Source of the DNA: an uncultured beta proteobacterium | GTDB taxonomy: Bacteria; Pseudomonadota; Gammaproteobacteria; Burkholderiales; Burkholderiaceae | Assembly (NCBI GenBank): GCA_903918115.1 | Contig: CAIXDG010000200.1 | Span: 1-40,453, forward strand | Direction: 5' to 3' | Length of the DNA stretch: 40,453 bases | Shown: piece by piece, positions 19,101 to 23,235 of the stretch | How positions within the stretch are numbered: the stretch's first letter is position 1 | How the letters are laid out: every line of letters starts with the position of its first letter | Translations under genes and position numbers: made by a program | Notes under the pieces: generated by a model | What the model saw: the letters and a program-made list of their open reading frames with translations, nothing else | What the model was told of the DNA's origin: nothing | Databases searched by the model: none

Positions 19101-19689
19101 TCAATAGGCGGCAACACCACCGTCACTACGGGGATCCCAGCCCCCTCGCAATACTCCCGAGGGTTCGCGAATAATGCAGCCGGCATGACCGACAGTTTCG
19201 TCAAAATCGGTAAGCAACTCAATCTCATGACCGAGCTCGGCCAGGTCGCTAATTACGCGAGGATCAAAGCGTGACTCTAGCTTTAGACTATCGCTGGTTT
19301 GGCCCCAGGTTCGACCCAATAACCAACGCGGTCGACTAATGGCTTCTTGTGGATCAAGGCCATAAACTGCCGTTCTAGTAAAGACTGCACACTGCGTTTG
19401 CGGTTGACCGTCCCCACCCATCGTGCCATACACCATAGAACGACCATCTTTAAAAAGCGCTAAAGCCGGATTTAAGGTATGAAAAGGTTTGCGGAAAGGC
19501 TCTAAGGTATTGAGTGACGCAGGGTTTAAAGAAAAACTACAGCCCCGGTTTTGCCAATTAATACCCGAGCTAGGCAAAACAATGCCAGCGCCAAACTCGT
19601 GGTAAATACTCTGAATAAATGAAACACAGCAACCGTGCTTATCCACTACTCCCATCCAAATCGTATCGGCGGGTCCTTTTCCTTGTCCC
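19101..19689 (-). pseudogene. N-terminally truncated gamma-glutamyltransferase (YwrD-like) remnant
   Basis: GQGKGPADTIWMGVVDKHGCCVSFIQSIYHEFGAGIVLPSSGINWQNRG...MVYGTMGGDGQPQTQ...GGWDPRSDGGVAAY: C-terminal half only; homology cannot continue past about 19690. Confidence 0.75.
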
Positions 19690-19948: not shown

Positions 19949-21028
19949 TTACGGCGCAGCCCGATTTTTTTCTAATTGCTGATTGACTAAGTTAATAATC
20001 TGATCGACTTCATCCGAGTGAATGCCCTGTTTAGCGGCAACGGTTTGCATTAAAAGATCCACTCGTTCAATATTTTTTGCGCCGGCAAATAAAGCGCGTG
20101 CGGCCGATGAAGGGCTGCCTAAACTGAGCGCTGCATTAGCGTATTTTTCAAAAGGCACCAAATCGGCCTCGCTCGCTCCTAGTGTCTGACAAAGCTGTCG
20201 AGCCCAGTTATAGATATTTTTAGAGAGTTCGAGATCATCATGAATAGCCTCTTTAATTGGACGTATACCATTTGGGCCAATGCAGCGGTAATTACCAGCT
20301 AATAACATGCTCCATTTTGCTAAGGGCACAAAGACCGAGTCGAATACTTTTAATTTAACCGGTAACTCAATTACTTCAGAGCCGGTATCAAAGCGTACTG
20401 CCTCAATATCAGCGGCAATATTGCGTAGCATTTGCGTATGTTCATTTGACTCAAAACGTGCGGCCTTGAAGTTCGTTGGTAAGCGCACTTGCAGTACGTT
20501 AATCGGCTCATCCGGTGGCCGAAAAGCTTGTGCATCAGGGCTACATAAAGTCATCATCTTTGGATCAAAGCCATCCCAAACACTGGGATCGGTATAACAA
20601 TTGCGATAATCAGCTATCGATAAGCCAGGAATTCGGGCTAAATAGGTCAAGGGTGGCATATTCATAATCGACATGGTGGGTATCTTCGCTACTGCCACTG
20701 CTTGCAGTAATTCCCGCACTCCTGGAGCACCATACTGTGGCTCCTGCATTGCAAGTACCACTAAATCGTAATCTGCTAAGTTGACATTGTTTGGTGTAGT
20801 AGCAGAAATTTTTCCCGTCAAACTGCGAGAATCAACCTCAACTAAGCCATCCCTACCTTTAATTGGAAAGCGTACTCTCGTGCCCTCGCGATTAATGAGC
20901 TCAACTTCATTCGGTAGACAAACGAGGGTGGCATCATGGCCCGCAAGAGCCAATTTAGTTGCTAACAAAGAGCCATAAGAGGCGCCAAAAATAAGAACTT
21001 TATAGTGCTGTGCTGGTTTAACTTGCAT
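19949..21028 (-). CDS. Divergent ketopantoate reductase (ApbA/PanE)-like protein
   Basis: MQVKPAQHYKVLIFGASYGSLLATKLALAGHDATLVC, DLVVLAMQEPQY, SPSSAARALFAGAKNIERVDLLM. Start moved from 21088 to 21028 (RBS-like GGGAG upstream; the longer start would lie in the riboswitch expression platform). Confidence 0.75.
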   Translation of the reverse strand: MQVKPAQHYKVLIFGASYGSLLATKLALAGHDATLVCLPNEVELINREGTRVRFPIKGRDGLVEVDSRSLTGKISATTPNNVNLADYDLVVLAMQEPQYGAPGVRELLQAVAVAKIPTMSIMNMPPLTYLARIPGLSIADYRNCYTDPSVWDGFDPKMMTLCSPDAQAFRPPDEPINVLQVRLPTNFKAARFESNEHTQMLRNIAADIEAVRFDTGSEVIELPVKLKVFDSVFVPLAKWSMLLAGNYRCIGPNGIRPIKEAIHDDLELSKNIYNWARQLCQTLGASEADLVPFEKYANAALSLGSPSSAARALFAGAKNIERVDLLMQTVAAKQGIHSDEVDQIINLVNQQLEKNRAAP

Positions 21029-21059
21029 TGCGTAAGGCTCCCGAGTACTTTCCGCAAAT

Positions 21060-21103
21060 TGAATGGAGTGAAGCAAAAATGCAGCCATTCATTTACGGCT
21101 GCC
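21060..21103 (-). promoter_or_regulatory. Riboswitch expression platform: terminator hairpin with competing antiterminator
   Basis: GCAGCC...GGCTGC hairpin (21081-21103) followed by ATTTTT on minus strand; TGAATGG (21090-21084) can instead pair with CCATTCA (21066-21060). Confidence 0.6.
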
Positions 21104-21106
21104 GCT

Positions 21107-21300
21107 CCCTCTGTCCTTGGTACCTGAGAGATTCACACCTAAATAGAGTTAGGCATTTGCTCCTTCGGTGCGCCCCATTTCGGTGGCGACTCTCCAGACG
21201 GCTATTTAAGTTAAGCAGTACTAGTCTTTTGGGATACCTGAGCGTTCATAGGAGTTTGCGCCTTCGGTGGAGAAAGAAACTTCTCGCTCTCCTGCTTAAT
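21107..21300 (-). ncRNA. Tandem glycine riboswitch (two aptamers)
   Basis: Minus strand: GGAGAGcgagaagtttctttctccACCGAAGGcGCAAActcc...CTCAGGTATC then CTGGAGAGtcgccaccgaaatggggcgcACCGAAGGaGCAAAtgcc...tCTCTCAGGTACCaaggACAGAGGG. Both copies carry the glycine aptamer signature. Confidence 0.93.
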
Positions 21301-21382
21301 CAAAGTATATCTTATTCTAATAAATAGAAGCATTAATTTTACCGGTATATTGCAGTGCAAAATAAATCGGGTTTGAGTCTAA

Positions 21383-22327
21383 TTATTTGAATGCAGCTTC
21401 AATCATCTTGACTAAGGCATAGACAGCTTGGTTAGCGGGAGTTGCTAAGTTATATTGCAGGCCTTTCTCCACAATATACCCATTCAAAAAATCGATCTCG
21501 CTTAATTTACCCCGGGCTAAATCTGCCGCAGTAGATGATTTTTGTCCAGCCATTGTCTGGGCAATAATGGCATTTGCTTGGGCTGCCTCTTCCTTGCTTA
21601 TCGTGACTGCCTCACACTGCGCAATCGATAAAAACTCATCCGTAAGGCGCTCAATTAAAACTTGAATATGGGGTACTTGAACCATTTGCCCATAGCTTAT
21701 TTGCCCAATTGCGGAAATCGCGTTATAGCTACAGTTCACTAATAGCTTTAACCAAAGCGCTCTTTTAATATTGGCAGAAAACGCGCACGGCACACCCGCA
21801 TTTATAAATTGGTCAACTAGTTGTGTCAGGGCCCGTGGGTGTTTATGAGTGCTGGTGAAGTCTGTAGTAAATGCGCCAATTTGTAGTTCCCCGCGTCCAT
21901 AGTGTTTCACGGTGTTTAAATCAGTCATGGCTACGGCCACATAAACAGCCGCTGCATAAACAGGATTGGCAACTATTGAAGTAATCAATTCGACATTACT
22001 AACCCCATTTTGCAAACTGATAATCACTGTGTGAGCGGATAAGAATGGTTGCATGGCCTGCAGCGTAGCAACCGTATCGTACGATTTCACGCACAGTAAA
22101 ATAATGTCTGCATCGGCAATATCAGTAAAGTCAGCGCATGCTTGTAGCGCCACCTTAGCCTGAAAACCTTGACAATCCATTTGCAAACCAAGGCGATTAA
22201 TAGCGTCGACTCGCTCTGCACGACCAATTAAAATTGGCTCCTGATTACTACGTGCCAGCATTCCGCCGAAGAAGCACCCGACGGCGCCCGCTCCCACTAC
22301 AGCAATTTTCTGATTACCAGTACTCAT
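21383..22327 (-). CDS. panE: 2-dehydropantoate 2-reductase
   Basis: IAVVGAGAVGCFFGGMLA, SLQNGVSNVE, ALWLKLLVNCSYNAISA, SSTAADLARGKLSEIDFLNGYIV. Confidence 0.87.
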   Translation of the reverse strand: MSTGNQKIAVVGAGAVGCFFGGMLARSNQEPILIGRAERVDAINRLGLQMDCQGFQAKVALQACADFTDIADADIILLCVKSYDTVATLQAMQPFLSAHTVIISLQNGVSNVELITSIVANPVYAAAVYVAVAMTDLNTVKHYGRGELQIGAFTTDFTSTHKHPRALTQLVDQFINAGVPCAFSANIKRALWLKLLVNCSYNAISAIGQISYGQMVQVPHIQVLIERLTDEFLSIAQCEAVTISKEEAAQANAIIAQTMAGQKSSTAADLARGKLSEIDFLNGYIVEKGLQYNLATPANQAVYALVKMIEAAFK

Positions 22328-22353: not shown

Positions 22354-23235
22354 TTAAATATGCTTTCGCTTCTCAACTAGACTAAGAAACTTGTCATACT
22401 CTTTTTCGTCCACAGAATAACTATGCTCATCGTCAGGAAAAGTACCGCCCTTCACATCGGCAATATATTTTTTAATACCCTCAACCGCAACTTCCGTCAA
22501 ATTAGCATAACGTTTAGTAAATTTAGGCTTGAAATCCGAGAACACACCTAATAAATCATGGCATAACAAAATCTGGCCATCGGTACCAACGCCAGCACCA
22601 ATGCCAATAGTTGGAATCTCTAATTGCTGCGAAATAATGGTAGCAATCTTTGCTGGGACAGCCTCAAACTCAAGCATGAAGCAGCCTGCATCCTGAATTG
22701 CAAACGCATCTTCTAAGATTTTCATTGCGGTTTCGGCTGTTCGACCCTGCACCTTAAAACCGCCAAATACAGCTACAGTGTGCGGGGTCATACCAATGTG
22801 CGAGGCGGTGGGAATCCCTGCATCGACCATGGCTCTTAAGATATTTGCTTGGGATTTTCCGCCTTGGGGTTTCACAGCATCTGACCCTGCCTCCTGCATA
22901 AACCGAGTGGCATTGGTGAGTGCCCTGTCAATTGTGTTGTAGCTTTGATATGGCATGCAACCTAATAGAAAGGTATTTGGCGCGCCTCGTCTAATTCCTG
23001 CTGCATGCATCACCATCATGTCCATTGATGCAGGTATGGTATTAGAGTGACCGTGCGCAATCATCGCTAAACTATCCCCAATCACAGCAACATCTACCCC
23101 TGCAGTTTCTGCCCATTTTGCTGAGGTGTAATCAGGCACAGACATATAAACCATTTTCTCGCCTGTTTTTTTTGAGGCATAAATATCTTGAATGGTTCTT
23201 TTTTTGCGCTCAGGTACTTCCGTTGCTTTGTTCAA
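22354..23235 (-). CDS. PanB-like protein (ketopantoate hydroxymethyltransferase homologue, divergent active site)
   Basis: VIGDSLAMIAHGHSNT, RRGAPNTFLLGCMPYQSY, SDAVKPQGG, SHIGMTPHTVAVFGGFKVQGR, MLEFEAVPAKIA, IPTIGIGAGVGTDGQILLCHDLLG, KRYANL. Confidence 0.85.
   Translation of the reverse strand: MNKATEVPERKKRTIQDIYASKKTGEKMVYMSVPDYTSAKWAETAGVDVAVIGDSLAMIAHGHSNTIPASMDMMVMHAAGIRRGAPNTFLLGCMPYQSYNTIDRALTNATRFMQEAGSDAVKPQGGKSQANILRAMVDAGIPTASHIGMTPHTVAVFGGFKVQGRTAETAMKILEDAFAIQDAGCFMLEFEAVPAKIATIISQQLEIPTIGIGAGVGTDGQILLCHDLLGVFSDFKPKFTKRYANLTEVAVEGIKKYIADVKGGTFPDDEHSYSVDEKEYDKFLSLVEKRKHI

Follow-up and report, generated by a model that had tools for sequence, protein, structure and literature searches.

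A tandem glycine riboswitch paired with a gene for an uncharacterized reductase of predicted ketopantoate reductase fold in Polynucleobacter-type bacteria

Two glycine aptamers upstream of a reductase gene

The window, that is, the whole stretch of 40,453 nucleotides that was analyzed, belongs to a Polynucleobacter-type genome, which is 95% complete and comprises 1.88 Mb in 214 contigs. The window contains two glycine aptamers, a short leader, and a gene for a reductase, designated P0001, with genes of pantothenate synthesis on the upstream side. The features are listed in the order in which they are met on the minus strand.

22354-23235: PanB, upstream of P0001 and near PanE
21383..22327, minus strand: true PanE (2-dehydropantoate 2-reductase; TIGR00745, 236.6 bits against a cut-off of 141.35), the upstream neighbor and not the riboswitch target
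21304..21309, minus strand: -10-like hexamer TATACT, a likely promoter element directly upstream of aptamer 1, without a -35 consensus
21206..21304, minus strand: aptamer 1 (RF00504, 51.3 bits, model positions 1-94)
21101..21207, minus strand: aptamer 2 (RF00504, 61.0 bits, model positions 1-94)
21043..21107, minus strand: alternative long hairpin, reaching from the 3' edge of the P1 stem of aptamer 2 to the Shine-Dalgarno sequence
21075..21102, minus strand: terminator-like hairpin GCAGCC-loop-GGCTGC (stem-loop 21102-21081) followed by ATTTTT (one found, 0.6 expected)
21038..21042, minus strand: Shine-Dalgarno-like GGGAG, 9 nt before the ATG at 21028
19949..21028, minus strand: P0001, an uncharacterized reductase of 359 residues with a ketopantoate reductase/D-mandelate dehydrogenase fold

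The two aptamers form an adjacent tandem with a short linker and a 2-nt overlap, and both exceed the RF00504 gathering score of 32. The E value for aptamer 1 is 9e-10 in a search of the whole genome and 2.7e-10 in a search of a 135-base stretch, and for aptamer 2 it is 2.3e-10 in a search over the whole window. A cmscan of the window reports aptamer 2 alone, probably because of the 2-nt overlap, the best of overlapping matches being kept. The P1 stem of aptamer 1 is perfectly paired (UUAAGCAG/CUGCUUAA), and that of aptamer 2 is made up of a 5' strand at 21202-21195 and a 3' strand at 21113-21106. No glycine aptamer beyond the two at 21304-21101 was found by the genome-wide RF00504 search.

A preliminary description of this DNA had placed a tandem glycine riboswitch on the minus strand and named the Rfam glycine model as a check; the two adjacent matches above cut-off confirm the element and its coordinates. 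It is an ordinary two-aptamer glycine riboswitch as judged from its sequence, and would bind glycine. Like the tandem riboswitch of the gcvT operon (RF00504), it places two adjacent aptamers in one leader before the gene, but the gene downstream here is neither gcvT nor a transporter gene nor a serine gene.

Aptamer 2 is followed by a leader of 72 nt, the GGGAG sequence, and the ATG at 21028, where the next minus-strand coding sequence starts, as described before; it ends at 19949. A longer open reading frame from the ATG at 21088 was rejected because its N-terminal extension is not conserved in two related genomes (G001 and G344). The other paired loci, where the sequence extends far enough, have a -10-like hexamer (TATACT, TATAAT, or TACAAT) at almost the same position, and a sigma-70 pattern scan found no full promoter. 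Behind the reductase gene, the minus strand encodes only the C-terminal third of a gamma-glutamyltranspeptidase (19101-19655; profile positions 333-512 of 512), which is probably a gene remnant.

The reductase family and its relation to PanE

In the genome collection, the family of P0001 counts at least 559 confirmed relatives, mostly from beta- and alphaproteobacterial records, and it is strongly conserved, with 55-91% identity to P0001 among 47 aligned members. Four relatives, with up to 58% identity, are found on plasmid records. The Pfam model ApbA matches P0001 with 19.5 bits, below its cut-off of 22.2, and only over residues 15-94 in the N-terminal half; there is no match to ApbA_C in Pfam and none in NCBIfam. 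An assignment as PanE was rejected on these grounds and because the genuine PanE of the genome adjoins.

Profile similarity between P0001 and PanE is confined to the N-terminal domain. There, the dinucleotide loop GASYGS of P0001 is set against GAGAVG of PanE. This loop is one residue shorter than GxGxxG, a motif that P0001 does not contain, and the short form is conserved throughout the family. Asn-123, which is kept, aligns by profile to the asparagine of the QNG motif of PanE. Lys-238, Asn-246, Ser-307/Ser-308, and Glu-321 are invariant or nearly so among the 47 aligned members; matched to ketopantoate reductase by eye, they are likely catalytic residues.

A structural model of P0001 built on a deep family alignment has a mean pLDDT of 94 and a pTM of 0.92, and was used in place of an earlier, poor model from a shallow alignment (pLDDT 72). 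The best match in the Protein Data Bank is D-mandelate dehydrogenase in complex with NADH and a substrate analogue (code 5x20, E 1.6e-13), with a TM score of about 0.75 by target length. Ketopantoate reductases match over the full-length fold, with E values of about 1e-13 and TM scores of up to 0.79; several solved members of the fold score 0.75-0.79 by target length. According to the model, P0001 belongs to the ketopantoate-reductase-fold (6PGDH-like) superfamily, a relationship secured by fold only.

P0001 shares with PanE/ApbA (PF02558/PF08546, TIGR00745) the overall fold and the asparagine of the QNG motif, and differs from it in its sub-cut-off Pfam match, the missing NCBIfam match, the GASYGS loop, and a structural identity to the best matches in the Protein Data Bank of 12-17%. 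The earlier label "PanE/ApbA-like" is to be corrected, since the likeness in sequence is faint and only the fold secures the relationship; P0001 is better called a distant relative of PanE. From D-mandelate dehydrogenase (5x20, 3wfi, and 8wl1), an NADH-dependent 2-oxo acid reductase, it also differs, with 13-15% identity, and the likeness is one of fold, the pocket aside.

Conservation of the riboswitch-reductase pairing

The riboswitch is situated directly upstream of a P0001 orthologue in 16 genomes of two families, several of them incomplete metagenome-assembled genomes (MAGs). Ten belong to the Polynucleobacter genus (G000, G001, G034, G344, G424, G440, G441, G444, G445, and G457) and six to a second family (L160, L161, L162, L165, L167, and L168). 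In a first set of 37 genus genomes, three contain P0001 and all three have the riboswitch directly upstream. In a wider set of 186, a close P0001 occurs in 13 and the riboswitch in 10 of these; the others (G351, G377, and G443) have the same gene upstream and no riboswitch. The second family, reached from L060, has the riboswitch in six of the 10 genomes with P0001 and lacks it in four. A core-motif scan revealed no glycine aptamer upstream of the gene in the other relatives inspected. Five further genus genomes (L154-L158) contain a distant P0001 relative (54-55% identity) with other neighbors and no riboswitch.

The genes around the pair vary by subclade, while riboswitch and P0001 stay together. 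The subclade of the window has panE upstream (both panB and panE in the window itself and in its close relatives), the P. finlandensis locus has tex-like and arsR genes around P0001, and unrelated genes flank the pair in the second family. At the paired loci the aptamers are intact and the leader to the start codon is consistently short.

Synthesis of ketopantoate needs a one-carbon unit, which is supplied from glycine or serine. This origin of the one-carbon unit, the shared fold, and the presence of panB and panE next to the pair on its upstream side, in the window as well as in close relatives of it, would suit a second, riboswitch-controlled ketopantoate reductase for pantothenate synthesis. 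We consider such a role improbable, as the adjoining gene already encodes a full PanE, other subclades have unrelated neighbors (tex-like, arsR, and a transporter), and the sequence of P0001 is far from that of PanE outside the limited N-terminal profile similarity.

A gene tree with 72 members unites the 16 genes that have the riboswitch and those of G351, G377, and G443 in one clade with an SH-aLRT support of 92, which rises to 99 with one further member included. The distribution of the riboswitch on this tree requires two changes, one gain and one loss, compared with 14.6 when the labels are shuffled, and none of 500 shuffles gave as few. A second tree of 79 members agrees. The second-family P0001 genes without the riboswitch branch outside the paired clade, so that riboswitch and gene appear to have moved together.

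The riboswitch and the reductase gene thus form a conserved unit, and the pairing is real; chance adjacency was rejected because the arrangement is found in 16 genomes and in one clade. One might still suppose that the riboswitch formerly belonged to gcvT or to some other gene and stands before P0001 today incidentally or in decay, since glycine riboswitches of the genus precede several different genes and most genus genomes have no gcvT. The intact aptamers, the short leader, the varied flanks in two families, and the single clade of paired genes make this very improbable.

The targets of glycine riboswitches that appear in surveys comprise glycine cleavage, transporter, and serine genes (PMC3766115) as well as malate synthase and serC (PMC2211319). 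The target here had been described as neither gcv nor a transporter, which the recurrence of the arrangement in both families bears out. In the literature searched, no glycine riboswitch target is reported from the reductase family of P0001, and full-text searches, in which subscription journals are thinly covered and an earlier mention is possible, found no article that mentions glycine riboswitch together with ketopantoate. P0001 is probably a previously unreported glycine-controlled gene. A close parallel is the glcB riboswitch of Pelagibacter (PMC2211319), whose target is likewise a glyoxylate-linked enzyme outside glycine cleavage; there it is malate synthase, whereas here it is a reductase whose riboswitch-less relatives adjoin malate synthase A.

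Switch direction, metabolic context, and proposed role

Two structures can be drawn in the leader behind aptamer 2. The terminator-like stem recurs in some relatives from the second family as GCAACC/GGTTGC, but a conserved intrinsic terminator as the expression platform was rejected because these relatives have lost the T-run. A hairpin equivalent to the long one is drawable in all 14 divergent leaders compared and is the minimum free energy structure in 12, and both sides of the stem differ together between leaders at many positions, in a comparison that is biased toward pairing since each sequence was folded separately and the structure chosen for each. When a single consensus fold was sought with RNAalifold, misalignment of the hairpin arms in the sequence alignment left almost no structure in the platform. 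No consistent shift in the exposure of the Shine-Dalgarno sequence emerged when the leader was folded with P1 free and with P1 occupied, and the 282-nt leader as a whole folds no better than shuffled sequences (z -0.37).

These structures bear on the direction of the switch. The terminator-like stem starts just 3' of P1, so that P1 stabilized by glycine could disfavor it, which would suit an ON switch. The full long hairpin, which reaches the Shine-Dalgarno sequence, shares two bases with the outer edge of P1 of aptamer 2; it could compete with the glycine-bound state and favor the opposite direction. In that case glycine would switch the gene OFF, and P0001 would serve the supply of glycine and not its removal. 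We regard this as unlikely, given the position of the terminator-like stem in the window and the published pattern, in which ON switches go with genes for glycine degradation and OFF switches with uptake (PMC6944388). By analogy with that pattern, glycine probably switches the reductase gene ON.

Model searches found no gcvT above cut-off in any of the 13 paired genomes covered (all 10 of the genus and three of the six from the second family). Among the 37 genus genomes, gcvT is above cut-off in eight, all of which have a glycine riboswitch at gcvT. It is absent from the other 29 whatever the riboswitch target, and several paired genomes are incomplete, so that its absence from the paired genomes is suggestive only.

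Relatives of P0001 without a riboswitch provide further context. Malate synthase A, which consumes glyoxylate, is encoded divergently beside such relatives at nine loci (L051, L053, L055, L071, L085, L121, L125, L127, and L133), and the two genes are 108-247 nt apart at the loci measured; the assignment was above the TIGR01344 cut-off at all three loci checked. The nine cases are confined to a single region of the gene tree and may therefore represent one ancestral arrangement. At two other loci, L065 (1-nt gap) and L118 (overlap), the relative and an aminotransferase gene likely form an operon. The two aminotransferases, one from a Sterolibacterium-type MAG and the other from an alphaproteobacterial MAG, are 66% identical, and their best NCBIfam match is the aspartate-glyoxylate aminotransferase BhcA, below the cut-off of that model. 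Most family members have other neighbors, such as TctC-type binding proteins and monooxygenases, and no conserved operon was found across the family. Five of the six second-family paired genomes have malate synthase A, and a search of the window's genome gave no match. Most paired Polynucleobacter genomes give a weak match, typically within an open frame some 740 codons long that is perhaps malate synthase G.

The nine malate synthase A loci and the two BhcA-like loci strengthen the earlier suggestion that the reductase is tied to glycine, glyoxylate, or one-carbon supply. The pairing with the riboswitch is in itself a strong hint that P0001 acts on glycine or glyoxylate, and D-mandelate dehydrogenase and ketopantoate reductase, whose folds it appears to share, are enzymes of 2-oxo acids, which points the same way. 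A linked pair could also be explained if P0001 made or broke an N-carboxymethyl (opine or imine) product of glycine instead of reducing glyoxylate. Octopine dehydrogenase does match the structural model (E 1.6e-7), and the shortened, conserved GASYGS loop may mean that the handling of cofactor and substrate differs from that of PanE. This chemistry is nevertheless doubtful: the model is much closer to ketopantoate reductase and D-mandelate dehydrogenase, the Pfam scan gave no opine dehydrogenase match, and the malate synthase and glyoxylate aminotransferase neighbors fit glyoxylate.

Taken together, context and fold make the function of P0001 a well-founded hypothesis. We propose, with a probability of roughly 0.6, that the glycine riboswitch, in lineages without gcvT, controls a reductase that acts on 2-oxo acids in glycine/glyoxylate metabolism. 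Transcription would start at or just upstream of aptamer 1, and two glycines would bind the two aptamers. Stabilization of P1 of aptamer 2 would then lead to a different hairpin between P1 and the Shine-Dalgarno sequence, and the reductase gene would probably be turned on. The enzyme is predicted to depend on NAD(P) and to reduce or form a small 2-oxo acid in the catabolism of glycine, with glyoxylate as the most likely substrate and hydroxypyruvate as the second, and could give bacteria that lack gcvT another outlet for excess glycine. More tentatively, and at somewhat less than even odds, P0001 may represent a new enzyme family of glycine/glyoxylate metabolism (a glyoxylate/hydroxypyruvate reductase or a glycine oxidoreductase) that is controlled directly by glycine where glycine cleavage is lacking and whose gene moved between families together with the riboswitch. 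With this pairing, a riboswitch that ranks among the best studied gains a further class of target. The pairing further provides an initial clue to the function of a reductase family that is widespread and highly conserved and carries no annotation beyond hypothetical or ketopantoate reductase. It also suggests how freshwater bacteria without glycine cleavage may respond to glycine.

A survey of the genes downstream of glycine riboswitches in related genomes, as proposed in the preliminary description, showed other targets besides the recurring P0001. In nine genus genomes (L021-L023 and L025-L030; on the minus strand in L022, for example), a tandem glycine riboswitch precedes a gene for a conserved protein of 58-67 residues with a consensus of about M(T/S)NK..xEAP(Y/F)HPGYED and no Pfam match. 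The differences in this gene are distributed over the codon positions as is typical of selection (2/5/20), and very short open reading frames with their own Shine-Dalgarno sequence lie between the riboswitch and the gene, which is perhaps a second unreported target. An alternative oxidase (PF01786) is encoded after the small-protein gene on the plus strand of L028 (2063-2665), and L023 has an alternative oxidase-like remnant. In five genus genomes without gcvT (L003, L004, L006, L008, and L012), the riboswitch precedes a DadA-like FAD amino-acid oxidoreductase, with a PF01266 match in L012, the one scanned; it is possibly another glycine-catabolic target.
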